DNA of 64,000 nucleotides from Candidatus Bathyarchaeota archaeon (GTDB lineage: Archaea > Thermoproteota > Bathyarchaeia > Bathyarchaeales > Bathycorpusculaceae): positions 62,001-126,000 of the forward strand of contig JAGTQZ010000009.1 in assembly GCA_018396705.1 (NCBI GenBank), in the 5' to 3' direction. Below are positions 17,287-23,508 of the stretch, in pieces; within the stretch, counting starts at the first letter, position 1, and every line of letters begins with the position of its first letter. The notes below the pieces were generated by a model. It made no database searches. It had not been told where the DNA came from and was given only the letters and a program-made list of their open reading frames with translations. The position numbers were made by a program, and so were the translations under genes.

Positions 17287-17844
17287 CTATTTTGAGAGAA
17301 GCAAGTCTATCAGCGCTTTTTGGTCTACTTCCGCCATTGTCCGCCAGTCTAGGTATAATTGTTCGTTTTCGTCTTGGGATATGTATCCATAACGTATGTA
17401 GCGGTCTATGTTTAGGCTTGCCTTCCAGCCTGGCAGTTTTTCGCGTAACAGTTCTTCCACTTCTCTACGGGGCGCTTTCCCCCTCTTTGAGATTATGTAG
17501 GCTATTGTTATGGCTAGTCCGGCTAAGTCGTCTATACGCCATCCAACCATTTTAGCTTCTTTTGGCGTCAAGTCGCCTCGGAGCGTTATGTAAAATCTTG
17601 CTTTGTCCATTTCTTCTGGCATCAGTTTTTCAGAATGCGGTTTTTCTTCTTCAAAAACCATTTTAACCTGCAAGTCCAACGGCTTAAGGTACTCGTCTAA
17701 TATGCTAAGCACTTTCGGATAATCCGCGCCTAAAGCTTTCCGAAGTTCCCAACCCTTCACTCCAGGTTTTTTGTGTCGACGGTAAAAGAGCATGTGAACA
17801 GCGCGTTTAATTTTGCTGGCGTAAACTGCTTTTTGCCTGCTCAT
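17287..17844 (-). CDS. Winged-helix protein, Nse1/KITE-like candidate of an SMC complex
   Basis: A 185-residue protein that reads as two winged helices: residues about 8-92 (a helix with AVHMLFYRR, then GWELRKALGADYPKVLSILD and a strand RFYITLRG) and about 100-180 (LAGLAITIAYIISKRGKAPR, then a strand EQLYLDWRTMAEVDQ). The second unit resembles eukaryotic Nse1, where a helix, a KKxEAExxL-type helix and a final strand plus LGxRxxxELxQ helix occur. No RING finger is present. KITE subunits bind the kleisin of SMC5/6 and MukBEF-type complexes. It overlaps the preceding gene by 4 bases (ATGA), last of three coupled genes. The assignment is by eye and needs structure comparison. Confidence 0.7.
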   Translation of the reverse strand: MSRQKAVYASKIKRAVHMLFYRRHKKPGVKGWELRKALGADYPKVLSILDEYLKPLDLQVKMVFEEEKPHSEKLMPEEMDKARFYITLRGDLTPKEAKMVGWRIDDLAGLAITIAYIISKRGKAPRREVEELLREKLPGWKASLNIDRYIRYGYISQDENEQLYLDWRTMAEVDQKALIDLLLSK

Positions 17845-18671
17845 CGGGCTTTAGCTCCTTTTCTCCATTTTTCCCATTCTTCGCGGGTTATGGCTATGGG
17901 TAGCGAAACCAATTGTTTTTTGGTTGTTCGTCTCTGCTGTTTCTCAAAAGGTTTAATGAATATTTCCCCCTCTAAAGGGTAAACTTCAAGGGTTGCATAT
18001 CCATAGGTGACAAGAAAACTTGTCAAGAAAGCTCTATGAATGGTTTCCTCGTAGGTTTCCGCGCCCACAAAATCCCAATATCTGACTCTGCCGTTTTCGC
18101 CATTTTCAATGGCAAGTTTTTTCAACTCATTCCAGAAGTTTTCCAACTCTTCTGTGAAGGCCTTATCCCGCAGGATCTTCAGCCTTATAAGCTCCTCACG
18201 TGTAGCGGCGCCTCCAGTTTCTTCTGGTGTGGGGAACTCTTTCCATCTATCCTTTAATGGCGGTAGGCTTTCCCAATATTGTAGCGCCTCCTTTAAACTG
18301 TGAAGCGAAATCTGTTCAAGTTCAATTATTGGGTGCCATGCACCGAGAAAAGCTTCCACAACTGCTTCTTTTTCGAGACGTTTTATCTTCTCTTCAAGAA
18401 GGAACGGATCTGTGTAGAGGGAAGTAGAACGATGTTTAACCCATTCACTTTGAAGCCTAATGACCGATGCAAGGCGGTTTATTGCTTCAGCGTCTAGGCA
18501 AAGGTCTTCAGGCTGCTCCCATTCTGGAAAGAATTCCCTAATAACCTTTATTATCTCGTCCACATCAACCAAAAAGGGGTCAAGTAAGCGTTCCTCAACG
18601 GTTCGACACATTTCAATTACTCGTTGAAGCCTCTCCCTTCCGATTTTTGTGCGCTCACTTTTAGACTGCAT
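17841..18671 (-). CDS. Nse4/kleisin-like candidate subunit of an SMC complex
   Basis: A 276-residue protein. The N-terminal half is helical, with DPFLVDVDEIIKVIREFF and INRLASVIRLQSEWV reminiscent of a kleisin N-terminal helical domain. A charged linker covers about 140-185. The C-terminal part from residue 195 (YWDFVGAETYEETIHRAF, then SFLVTYGYATLEV, ending SLPIAITREEWEKW) lines up with the Nse4 C-terminal winged helix as I remember it (FxFVxxPxSFxxTVENxFYxSFLxRxGxA, ending in xxxWEE). The start overlaps the SMC stop by one base (TAATG) and the end overlaps the winged-helix gene by 4 bases, as for subunits made in fixed ratio. Kleisin identity is inferred. Confidence 0.7.
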   Translation of the reverse strand: MQSKSERTKIGRERLQRVIEMCRTVEERLLDPFLVDVDEIIKVIREFFPEWEQPEDLCLDAEAINRLASVIRLQSEWVKHRSTSLYTDPFLLEEKIKRLEKEAVVEAFLGAWHPIIELEQISLHSLKEALQYWESLPPLKDRWKEFPTPEETGGAATREELIRLKILRDKAFTEELENFWNELKKLAIENGENGRVRYWDFVGAETYEETIHRAFLTSFLVTYGYATLEVYPLEGEIFIKPFEKQQRRTTKKQLVSLPIAITREEWEKWRKGAKAR

Positions 18672-20593
18672 TAGGCAACCTCTTTAATTATAGATTTACC
18701 CTCAACATTCTGAACCGTAATTATGTTGACGTCATCTTGGGCGAAAGTTATTTGGCTTGGCGTGATCACCACGTACTGGGCATCTGCATTCTTGACTGTT
18801 GAAATGAGCATTTGAGCTATCAATTCACGGTTTTTGGGGTCCATGTGTACGTCGTACTCGTCTACGGCGCGGAAGGGCGAGCGTACATGCTGCTGTAAAG
18901 CTAACAGAAAACTCATGGTGGCTGTGGTTCTTTCGCCCCCGCTTTGAGTGTAGGCGTTAAGCGGCACCGGTTTGCCGCCCTTAAAGCCAACCAAGATTTC
19001 AAGTCCCGCCGCCTCAATGTCATGCTCGTTTATAAGTCTAATTTCGCCAACGGCTTGCGAATGCGCCAAAATCTTCTGGTATTCCAAGTTTACACGATCC
19101 AGCAGACTTTGGATGACGGTTCGCCAAGCTTGCATTCGCGTCTTAACTTCTACTAAGGCTTTTTCCCGGTTTTCCGCCACAAGCCTAGCCTTTTCCTTAA
19201 GCTCCAAGTAAAGCTGCGAATAAGATTCATACATGCGTTCAACATCTTCTGAAACGCCAGCTAAAGCAGCCAAATGTCCGTCCGTCACACGAATTTCATC
19301 CAAAATTTCGCCGACGCTTTTAATAGTAGCTATTCTTGGACCACCTTCCTCAGCCTTTTTGAGAGCTAAATCCAGTTGGGCTTTTGCGTCTTTAAGCTCC
19401 TTATCCAGTTCTTCAATGTTTGCCTTCACGTTCTCCATCCGGTAATTCAGCAGCGCAAGCTTGACCCGCGCGTCTAGAATTTGACTTTCAACTTTTTCCA
19501 TATGTCCCTCAAAGATTCTGATTTCCGAAAGTCTCTTATTCAATTCTTCATCCAGCTTAGAAATTTTCTGTTTTGAAATTTCCATAAGCTCTTTTAGACT
19601 TCCAGTTTTTAAAAGTTTCAAACGTTGCCCGCTGATCACAGCTTCATTTTCTATAAGTGCCGTTTCTGTCATTAGTTGTTCGCAAAGCGAAATTGTAGCT
19701 TGACTTCCAGCTTTCTCCCGTTCAAGGCTTATGAGGCCGCTAAGTTTTTCCCTCCATTCGCTTCTCAATTTTTCAAGTTGACTTTGCCGGCTTAGAAGAT
19801 GTTCTTCGACTGTTTTGGCTTCTGCTTCGATCTGTCTCAGTAATGCTTGTTCTTTCTCACGTTTAGCTTCTAGTTCTTCCAGAATGTTTTCGCGGCGGTT
19901 CACCTCAGCCCACGCAAGTTCCCGTTCCAGGAAGCGTCTTTTAGCTATTAGTTGCTTCTTTTCTTGAAGTCTTTCGTATTGTTCCCGCCAGTAATTAAGC
20001 GTCTGTTCCGCTGACTCCAAAAGCTTGCTTATGGATTCTTCTTGGCTGAGTATGCGGGTAAGCTTTTTTTGGGCTTCTAAAACATTTTCGCGGTAAGCTT
20101 CAAGTCCAACAGCCGCTTCAACCATGCGGAGCTTTTCCTGCGGGGAAAGCACCGTAAACTGTTCCACCATGTTTTGGTGCATGATAATCAACATGTTGTC
20201 CGGATCAACGCCTAGCTTAGCTAAAAGCCTCTCCACATCCTGCTTCGAGACAGCCTTGTTTTCAAGCTCAAACCAGTACTTGCCATCCCGTCTTAAGACA
20301 CGTGTCAAAAAAATCTGATCCTTGTTAAACTTTGAAACAGGCCGTTTGCCGCTTCGCCTAGAATTATCCAAAATAAGCGTAACACGAGCTTGATCTTTGC
20401 CCCAACGGATCAAATCACTCAACCTTCTGGAACGCTCAGTATAGGACTGACCTAAAGCCACCGAAATAGCCAACAAAAGCGAAGATTTTCCAGCACCATT
20501 AGGACCGCAAACAACGTTAACACCGGGTTTAAAGGGTACCCTAGCATACTCGTAACTCATGAAGTTCTCAAGGATTACTTCACTTATCAGCAC
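18671..20593 (-). CDS. SMC5/6-like ATPase, short form
   Basis: A 640-residue ABC-type ATPase of the SMC/Rad50 class. Walker A GPNGAGKS is at residues 30-37, the ABC signature SGGER at 551-555, Walker B ends FRAVDE at 574-579, and the D-loop follows (HMDPKN). The text after Walker B (SPFRAVDEYDVHMD) and the late VVITPSQITF strongly recall Smc6, and the N-terminal NFMSYEYARVPFKPGVNVV plus MHQNMVEQF recall Smc5/6 heads. Two coiled-coil arms (about 165-290 and 320-420) are much shorter than in canonical SMC proteins, and I see no glycine-rich hinge. Start GTG at 20593 with GAGG upstream. First gene of three coupled genes. Alternatives: a Rad50-like or arcadin-4-like ATPase. Confidence 0.85.
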   Translation of the reverse strand: MLISEVILENFMSYEYARVPFKPGVNVVCGPNGAGKSSLLLAISVALGQSYTERSRRLSDLIRWGKDQARVTLILDNSRRSGKRPVSKFNKDQIFLTRVLRRDGKYWFELENKAVSKQDVERLLAKLGVDPDNMLIIMHQNMVEQFTVLSPQEKLRMVEAAVGLEAYRENVLEAQKKLTRILSQEESISKLLESAEQTLNYWREQYERLQEKKQLIAKRRFLERELAWAEVNRRENILEELEAKREKEQALLRQIEAEAKTVEEHLLSRQSQLEKLRSEWREKLSGLISLEREKAGSQATISLCEQLMTETALIENEAVISGQRLKLLKTGSLKELMEISKQKISKLDEELNKRLSEIRIFEGHMEKVESQILDARVKLALLNYRMENVKANIEELDKELKDAKAQLDLALKKAEEGGPRIATIKSVGEILDEIRVTDGHLAALAGVSEDVERMYESYSQLYLELKEKARLVAENREKALVEVKTRMQAWRTVIQSLLDRVNLEYQKILAHSQAVGEIRLINEHDIEAAGLEILVGFKGGKPVPLNAYTQSGGERTTATMSFLLALQQHVRSPFRAVDEYDVHMDPKNRELIAQMLISTVKNADAQYVVITPSQITFAQDDVNIITVQNVEGKSIIKEVA

Positions 20594-22743: not shown

Positions 22744-22815
22744 TCTATGTTTTTCTGTCCACCCTTTTAAGCGTAAAACTTTAGTTTTAAAATTTTGTAA
22801 AAGTTATTGATAGCT

Positions 22816-23508
22816 ATGGTTGTTGCCGGCAAGGTTTTTAGACTTTTAGAAAAACTTTCTTTGGATGAAATTGCTTCCAAGCTTAACGGCTACCACGTTG
22901 AAGAACCTTATGAAGAAGGTGATTACCAGTTTACGCTTATAACAGAAGTTGGGGGTCTTCTACTAAAACCGGAAGAAAACATGTTGAGAGGCGTTTACTC
23001 CCATGACTATGTAATCCATGTTTTCCACAGAGGTAAAGTTGCACCATTTCCCCGTACAATTGAAGCATTATTCTGTTTTTCCCCGTTTGAGGATGCAACA
23101 TTCCTAACAATTGTTGAGAGGAAACGTTTAGCCAATTTCATAGCGAACAAGCTCAGCGAAATCCTCTTTGACAGAGTCGGCGGCATAGTTGAAGCACGCA
23201 TTCCACCGGAAGCACTTCGCGATTTCCACTTGAAAAATCCAGAGGATACTAAGATCACGTTTTTCGATAACGTTGATATTCCAAACGTGAATAAACTTTC
23301 ACTTTATGGACCTGACCTAGTGAACACCTCACTTTTTGAAGACTACTGCAAGCACGGCGACTTGTGGTATATTGTGGCCAGCTCAAGAGAATACGGCTAC
23401 GTGGTTGGCATAACAAGAGATGCTTCCGTAACCATATTTAACATTACAGACAAGGAGAAATACCTTGAATACGTAGTTAAAGAGGTTTACCCGCTGATTC
23501 TAAAATAA
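22816..23508 (+). CDS. Hypothetical archaeal protein
   Basis: Unrecognised 230-residue soluble protein, beginning MVVAGKVFRLLEKLSLDEIA. It looks like two alpha/beta units, with strand-rich text at DYQFTLITEVGGLLLKP and again LWYIVASSREYGYVVGITR. No catalytic motif, membrane helix or cysteine cluster is visible. Start ATG 22816 is preferred over the TTG at 22807, neither with a strong ribosome site. It follows another unknown gene on the same strand by about 70 bases and precedes the coiled-coil/SPFH pair by 84 bases. Conservation of these neighbours would help, but cannot be judged here. Confidence 0.75.
   Translation: MVVAGKVFRLLEKLSLDEIASKLNGYHVEEPYEEGDYQFTLITEVGGLLLKPEENMLRGVYSHDYVIHVFHRGKVAPFPRTIEALFCFSPFEDATFLTIVERKRLANFIANKLSEILFDRVGGIVEARIPPEALRDFHLKNPEDTKITFFDNVDIPNVNKLSLYGPDLVNTSLFEDYCKHGDLWYIVASSREYGYVVGITRDASVTIFNITDKEKYLEYVVKEVYPLILK

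Follow-up and report, generated by a model that had tools for sequence, protein, structure and literature searches.

The SMC5/6 complex is usually treated as eukaryotic. A three-gene operon in the archaeal DNA analyzed here (the window, 64,000 nucleotides from a Candidatus Bathyarchaeota genome) raises the question of whether an SMC ATPase, an Nse4-like kleisin and an Nse1-like KITE protein, as the original prediction named them, form a complex of this type, and how such a complex would act on DNA.

Gene organization

The three genes occupy positions 20593 to 17287 of the minus strand (Table 1), and the translation-coupled order that had been predicted was confirmed, with overlaps of 1 base between ATPase and kleisin and 4 bases between kleisin and KITE. 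Among 97 distinct loci, all three genes lay together on the fetched stretch in 91. Because they form a contiguous operon with the same order and strand in 88 of these 91, the arrangement is far from chance, and its conservation in relatives holds well beyond Bathyarchaeia. The source genome (96.7% complete) has one hingeless SMC5/6-type ATPase gene, and the KITE is likewise a single gene. An Lhr helicase is encoded on the stretch in 26 of the 97 loci and directly adjoins the KITE gene in 18. In 35 loci a conserved 233-aa protein is encoded upstream of the ATPase gene in divergent orientation, with FtsZ in between in the window; this protein is a possible functional neighbor of the complex. The neighbors of the operon in Bathyarchaeia are RNA polymerase subunits and FtsZ.

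Table 1. Positions of the operon genes, their domains and a nearby conserved gene in the window
Feature	Position	Strand	Description
ATPase gene	20593–18671	minus	640 aa, GTG start; SMC_N match 1.3e-38
ATPase layout			residues, about: N-head 1–180; coiled-coil arms 180–300 and 345–490; variable tip 300–360; C-head 490–640
Nse4-like kleisin gene	18671–17841	minus	276 aa
Kleisin Nse4_C winged-helix domain	about 18165–17850	minus	residues about 170–272
KITE gene	17844–17287	minus	185 aa; winged-helix domains at residues about 2–90 and 100–184
Conserved 233-aa protein	22807–23508	plus	no Pfam match

An SMC5/6-type head without a hinge

A profile of the ATPase retrieved SMC6 and SMC5 as its ten best matches in the PDB (236 to 182 bits), followed by bacterial and archaeal Smc (159 bits), SMC2 (135 bits) and Rad50 (42 bits). 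The canonical SMC of the same genome gave the opposite order, with no SMC5/6 match at E ≤ 1e-20. In a tree of the heads with a Rad50-type outgroup, the hingeless family and eukaryotic Smc5 and Smc6 formed one clade (100/99), canonical SMC and SMC2/3 formed a separate clade (99/99), and an AU test went against placing Smc5/6 outside the joint clade (p = 0.008). The eukaryotic sequences in this tree comprised the letters confirmed by PDB alignments, with the disordered insert of human SMC3 omitted. On this sequence evidence the ATPase heads belong with Smc5/6, as the original prediction held; grouping with Rad50 or RecN was not seen, nor was any other of the refuting outcomes that it had named.

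The nucleotide-binding motifs were found where they had been described, with Walker A (GPNGAGKS) at residues 30–37, SGGER at 551–555 and the Walker B/D-loop stretch SPFRAVDEYDVHMD at 572–585. Their core residues, E579 included, are invariant among 45 aligned relatives. Of 83 distinct full-length relatives, every one has Walker A, 82 have SGGER and 78 fit a strict (V/I)DE pattern for Walker B. As judged from these alignments, the catalytic motifs are intact. The hinge is another matter. No SMC_hinge match was found in the window ATPase or at the operon, and the matches to this model that were listed fall in long SMC frames, mostly of about 1180 aa; members of the hingeless family are 572–756 aa long, and within the protein conservation is lowest, and gaps are most frequent, in the tip (residues 300–360). 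The description "SMC ATPase" of the SMC5/6 kind thus stands for the type of head and fails for a full SMC, the hinge being missing and the arms short: the protein is predicted to be an incomplete SMC. Marine Actinobacteria have a hinge-less SMC (PMC12153180, 2025) that resembles it in having an SMC-type head and a coiled coil with neither hinge nor zinc hook; that protein is bacterial, and the excerpted text of the paper mentions neither SMC5/6 affinity nor a kleisin/KITE operon.

The missing hinge and short arms would also fit a divergent ATPase of the Rad50, RecN or ASRP (coalescin/Sph) type with unrelated helix-turn-helix partners, as would weak matches to Rad50, ASRP and arcadin-4 models, arcadin-4 having been compared by profile score alone. 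Such an origin is contradicted by the tree and the AU test. The operon also lacks the marks of Rad50/Mre11: the CxxC of a zinc hook occurs in 0 of the 83 full-length distinct relatives, the heads lie outside the Rad50 clade, there is no Mre11 neighbor, and a separate Mre11-Rad50 pair is present in the genome. Lamassu (LmuABC) and ASRP (coalescin, Sph) share with the operon ATPase the form of short coiled-coil ABC ATPases of about 600–650 aa, but they are Rad50-like or form their own clade, mostly carry a zinc hook and have other partners. Given an ASRP score (model NF045487) of 75 bits where the cut-off is 300, and operon partners that are a kleisin and a KITE, we regard a Rad50, RecN or ASRP relative as extremely improbable.

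The kleisin and KITE partners

The kleisin carries a predicted Nse4-type C-terminal domain. In the window protein alone, the Nse4_C match (residues 204–270, E 6e-4) scores 20.4 bits and so falls short of the cut-off, which is 26; it contains the FV, T..F..SFL...G.A and EEW elements in the order originally noted. Across relatives, an Nse4_C match at E ≤ 1 occurs in 53 of 54 proteins; the domain was found in 57 of 398 genomes, in 14 of them, all archaeal, with a score above the curated cut-off (best 1.7e-9), and in 0 of 14 controls. The only significant PDB matches of the kleisin profile were yeast Nse4 (5.6e-7) and human EID3 (1.1e-5), and the C-terminal half aligned with EID3 at E 1.6e-7, a score that 0 of 100 shuffles equaled. 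The N-terminal half is helical in a structure model of poor quality (pLDDT 63.5) and gave no homology signal to Nse4, 39 of 100 shuffles reaching its score, so that the likeness to Nse4 is supported for the C-terminal domain and not for the N-terminal half. A resemblance of the N terminus seen by eye (LDAE versus LDAR/LDAH) was not upheld by the same shuffles. ScpA and ScpB models matched neither the kleisin nor the KITE of the operon.

In the structure predictions of the kleisin and the KITE, relatives retrieved from the genomes were left out. The third protein is, in its AlphaFold2 model (pLDDT 79), a tandem winged-helix KITE, nearest Nse3/MAGE and Nse1, in agreement with the two winged helices predicted for it. 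The top eight Foldseek matches in the PDB were all KITE/MAGE-domain proteins, with Nse3/MAGE-G1 first, at low whole-chain TM-scores (0.3–0.4); KITE chains of Wadjet were among the matches. When its relatives were compared with 24,736 Pfam families, MAGE and SMC_Nse1 were the top two, and when 300 genomes were searched blind for MAGE, three of the four matches were the operon's KITE gene. By itself, the window KITE had no Pfam or NCBIfam match and no sequence match of its own to Nse1 or Nse3, and its profile retrieved nothing among PDB sequences. Alignment by hhalign to four MAGE sequences was weak, and still weak with 99 sequences (P 0.03–0.04; 2 of 150 shuffles as high), and the assignment therefore rests on the fold search and the family counts. 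The label "Nse1-like" is borne out in that the protein is a KITE of the Nse1/Nse3 type, but it is not specific to Nse1: the protein is as much Nse3-like, and domain and family searches found no RING domain in it.

Distribution and coexisting SMC systems

The kleisin is present in 157 of 398 Thermoproteota genomes, and in the contig scan the named records that it matched were only Bathyarchaeota and Crenarchaeota. Elsewhere in the source genome there is a canonical Smc-ScpA-ScpB set (SMC 1183 aa, ScpA 231 aa, ScpB 204 aa), and by the hinge model a canonical SMC accompanies the operon in 54 of 56 Bathyarchaeia genomes. The same model gave no hinge match in 81 of the 157 kleisin genomes, a count that overstates the absence of canonical SMC, as 7 of 15 rechecked hinge-negative genomes have an SMC of 1128–1169 aa that the model missed. 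Eight genomes checked from families f20, f38, f36 and f65 yielded no SMC of more than 1100 aa; alongside Rad50-like and ABC proteins, the hingeless ATPase was the one SMC-kleisin ATPase seen in them.

These eight genomes, together with the intact ATPase motifs, are what a loop-extruding motor would lead one to expect, one in which the coiled-coil tip dimerizes, direct contacts between coils taking the place of the hinge, and the complex organizes the chromosome, replacing canonical SMC where that is missing. The poor conservation of the tip is unlike a dimerization domain, and since Bathyarchaeia keep canonical SMC there is no simple replacement there; we therefore consider a motor of this kind rather unlikely.

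Eukaryotic Smc5/6 restricts episomes, and the operon could in principle be an antiviral or anti-plasmid system akin to Lamassu or Wadjet that happens to have an SMC5/6-like head. LmuB is similar in size (about 650 aa) and has short arms (PMC10586767). The ATPase matches LmuB models at 1.2e-24, and the Wadjet KITE chains among the structural matches point the same way; SMC models nevertheless score 173 bits against 85 for LmuB. LmuB generally has an E-to-Q change in Walker B, whereas E579 is invariant here, and the operon has neither an LmuA gene nor any other effector or nuclease gene. Presence in Bathyarchaeia is near-universal and vertical-looking, not sporadic, the system was not found on viral contigs, and the kleisin had no match on plasmids. 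A defense function thus seems very unlikely.

Proposed mechanism

We favor the reading that the operon probably encodes a compact SMC-kleisin-KITE complex of a hingeless SMC5/6 type. Because the hinge is missing, the usual SMC ring cannot close through the arms, and the complex is most likely a DNA clamp gated by ATP, or a structure sensor. With single genes for the ATPase and the KITE, which the original prediction did not point out, homodimers would be expected in place of the Smc5/Smc6 and Nse1/Nse3 pairs. One kleisin would bridge two ATPase copies, binding one head at the cap through its C-terminal winged helix and the other at the neck through its N-terminal helices, and two KITE copies would bind on the kleisin. 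By analogy to the Smc5/6 DNA clamp (PMC9191643, PMC10512200), ATP-driven head engagement may then grip double-stranded DNA between heads, kleisin and KITE. We speculate, from the gene neighborhood only, that the clamp has a role in replication-linked repair beside the Lhr-type helicase, while canonical Smc-ScpA(B) would fold the chromosome where both systems occur; the RNA polymerase and FtsZ neighbors in Bathyarchaeia speak against the repair role.

The proposed complex shares with the eukaryotic SMC5/6 core (Smc5, Smc6, Nse4, Nse1 and Nse3) its head clade, the Nse4 C-terminal domain, a tandem winged-helix KITE near Nse3/MAGE and Nse1, and an SMC-kleisin-KITE make-up; it differs in having no hinge, short arms, one ATPase gene and one KITE gene, no RING match and no sign of Nse4 N-terminal homology. 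Smc-ScpA-ScpB follows the same SMC-kleisin-KITE logic but has a hinge and falls in another head clade. Archaeal "SMC5/6-related" SMCs have been grouped with Smc5/6 by phylogeny (Yoshinaga and Inagaki 2021, cited in PMC9389158), and the excerpted text of PMC9389158 mentions them without kleisin or KITE partners; the hingeless family may be the same as, or overlap, these sequences.

Implications

The complex may represent an early stage, or a pared-down version, of a machine that is generally regarded as eukaryotic; the labels "primitive" and "DNA-loading machine" given by the original prediction we treat as inference. According to a 2025 paper (PMC12153180), Thermoproteota have no SMC complexes. 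It is conceivable, and we suggest it only tentatively, that SMC5/6, kleisin and KITE included, had its origin in archaea and that the hingeless clamp of Thermoproteota is the sole SMC-kleisin complex in several lineages. If so, complexes of this class could do their core job without a hinge, or this branch never had one. With an SMC5/6-type ATPase conserved in Thermoproteota together with an Nse4-like kleisin and a KITE, ideas on where the eukaryotic complex came from can be tested. A system of one ATPase and one KITE would be simpler for structural studies, and a natural hingeless version would allow a direct test of whether the hinge is needed for clamping, entrapment, loop extrusion and obstacle bypass.

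Results

The three genes lie exactly at the coordinates of the original prediction, on the minus strand with overlaps of 1 base and 4 bases, on contig C9 of a Bathyarchaeia assembly of 1.71 Mb that is 96.7% complete and that holds one copy each of the ATPase and KITE genes. The operon converges toward what appears from the sequence to be the RNA polymerase block rpoB-rpoA1-rpoA2-L30e-nusA, and is flanked on the opposite side by ftsZ, whose product was identified by Pfam.

Positions of the operon genes and of neighbouring genes, in the window or in fetched loci (L numbers)
Feature	Position	Strand	Context
ATPase (P0001, 640 aa)	window 20593-18671	minus	operon
Kleisin (P0002, 276 aa)	window 18671-17841	minus	operon
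KITE (P0003, 185 aa)	window 17844-17287	minus	operon
Conserved 233-aa protein	window 22807-23508	plus	upstream of, divergent to operon
Lhr-type helicase	L150:630-3452; L107:1002-3851; L109:5175-8075		facing KITE gene
Eukaryotic-type DNA topoisomerase IB	L109:293-1837; also L110, L117, L136		divergent to hingeless SMC gene, family f20

The prediction had read the operon as SMC5/6-like, and its ATPase head agrees with that reading. The window's ATPase matches SMC_N of Pfam (1.3e-38), and in a PDB search with a profile of 45 relatives the best ten chains were SMC6 and SMC5 (236 to 182 bits), with lower scores for bacterial/archaeal Smc (159 bits), SMC2 (135) and Rad50 (42). For the canonical SMC encoded elsewhere in this genome the pattern was reversed: it matched Smc, SMC2, SMC4, SMC3 and SMC1, and no SMC5/6 chain appeared at E <= 1e-20. 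In a maximum-likelihood phylogeny built from 47 heads and rooted on Rad50-type proteins, 19 hingeless-family members formed a clade with four Smc5/6 sequences (support 100/99), and canonical SMC formed another with SMC2/SMC3 (99/99). The AU test rejected a tree with Smc5/6 outside the rest (p = 0.008) and was compatible with Smc5 and Smc6 either being or not being mutual closest relatives (p = 0.31).

The 83 distinct full-length ATPase sequences span 572-756 residues (median 640); all have Walker A, 82 have SGGER, 78 fit a strict Walker B pattern and none has a CxxC hook mid-protein. Conservation is lowest and gaps are most frequent at residues ~300-360, the arm tip, which at the level of sequence is the opposite of the pattern of a hinge or hook. 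When 398 genomes were searched with the SMC_hinge model, none of the matches listed fell at a hingeless operon, and all lay in long SMC frames, mostly of ~1180 aa.

P0002 matches Nse4_C of Pfam at 6e-4, under the curated cut-off, and 53 of 54 relatives match it at E <= 1. A blind Nse4_C search gave matches in 57 of 398 Thermoproteota genomes (14 above cut-off, best 1.7e-9) and in none of 14 control genomes. The only significant PDB matches of the kleisin were Nse4 (5.6e-7) and EID3/NSE4B (1.1e-5). Its C-terminal half matches EID3 at E 1.6e-7, a score equalled by 0 of 100 shuffles; the N-terminal half gave no signal against EID3, 39 of 100 shuffles scoring as high. Nse4, ScpA-C and Scc1-C ranked top in a fold search with a poor predicted model, at weak E-values.

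The AlphaFold2 model of the KITE (pLDDT 79) has two winged helices, and its best eight Foldseek matches in the whole PDB were MAGE-G1/Nse3, Wadjet JetABC chains, Nse1, MAGE-A4 and Nse3; ScpB and MukE came further down, amid cullin and other winged-helix chains. For 29 relatives, the top families among 24,736 in Pfam were MAGE (8/29, best 2.7e-4) and then SMC_Nse1 (6/29, 6.5e-4). When 300 genomes were searched blind with the MAGE model, four matches emerged; three of these occupy the KITE position next to the kleisin gene, and one of the three barely exceeds the cut-off. Profile-to-profile comparison of the KITE with MAGE proteins was no more than suggestive.

Of 398 Thermoproteota genomes, 157 carry the kleisin, representing 78 of 163 genera and over 30 families; among the 316 high-quality genomes the number is 117. 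Relatives of the kleisin that bear a name come almost entirely from Candidatus Bathyarchaeota. The kleisin matched nothing in the plasmids searched, and no operon was seen in viral contigs. All three genes are present in 91 of 97 distinct loci and contiguous in one order in 88. The ATPase gene is shifted by a few to several kb or inverted in L111 and L112 (family f41) and L139 and L140 (f22), and in the f41 loci two other genes separate kleisin and KITE. An Lhr-type helicase gene occurs on the fetched stretch in 26 of the 97 loci, spread over many families other than the window's own; in 18 of these loci it is the immediate neighbour of the KITE gene. The 233-aa protein, without a match in Pfam or NCBIfam, keeps its position in 35 loci from several families, window included.

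The window's genome also encodes a separate SMC-ScpA-ScpB set (contig C3) and an Mre11-Rad50 pair, and hinge SMC was found in 54 of 56 kleisin-positive Bathyarchaeia genomes. Four families negative for a hinge match (f25, f29, f40, f41) have an SMC of 1128-1169 aa overlooked by the hinge model, so counts of canonical SMC absence are upper bounds. Eight rechecked genomes of families f20, f38, f36 and f65 contained no long SMC, and the hingeless ATPase there therefore looks like the sole SMC-kleisin ATPase. In genomes G073 and G142, the canonical SMC gene (L167, L169) has an intein-like start (GKC...) directly after Walker A; judging from sequence, canonical SMC in these two families may carry inteins at the ATP site.

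Discussion

The prokaryotic KITE complexes named in the reviews searched are Smc-ScpAB, MukBEF and Wadjet (PMC10512200), and Smc-ScpA of archaea reportedly works without a KITE (PMC7055376). A 2025 paper describes marine Actinobacteria with a hinge-less SMC and states that Thermoproteota are without SMC complexes (PMC12153180). SMC5/6-related SMC proteins in archaea, which may be the present family or overlap with it, are credited to Yoshinaga and Inagaki 2021 (cited in PMC9389158), and van Hooff et al. (doi 10.1101/2024.01.07.573240, cited in PMC11592926), whose topic is SMC origins, may describe archaeal Nse4/KITE genes. No description of this operon was found in the literature searched.

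A hinge is required for a large SMC ring. In the Smc5/6 clamp, DNA is held below by the engaged heads and above by Nse3, with all parts joined by Nse4 (PMC9191643). Judged from its genes, the archaeal operon differs from Smc5/6 in encoding all of the clamp parts without a hinge, and for this reason we favor a complex in which two identical ATPase subunits, a single kleisin and a pair of KITEs would form an ATP-gated DNA clamp. The gene neighborhood makes a functional link with the Lhr-type helicase possible, and we infer from it that the complex may act in repair beside that helicase.
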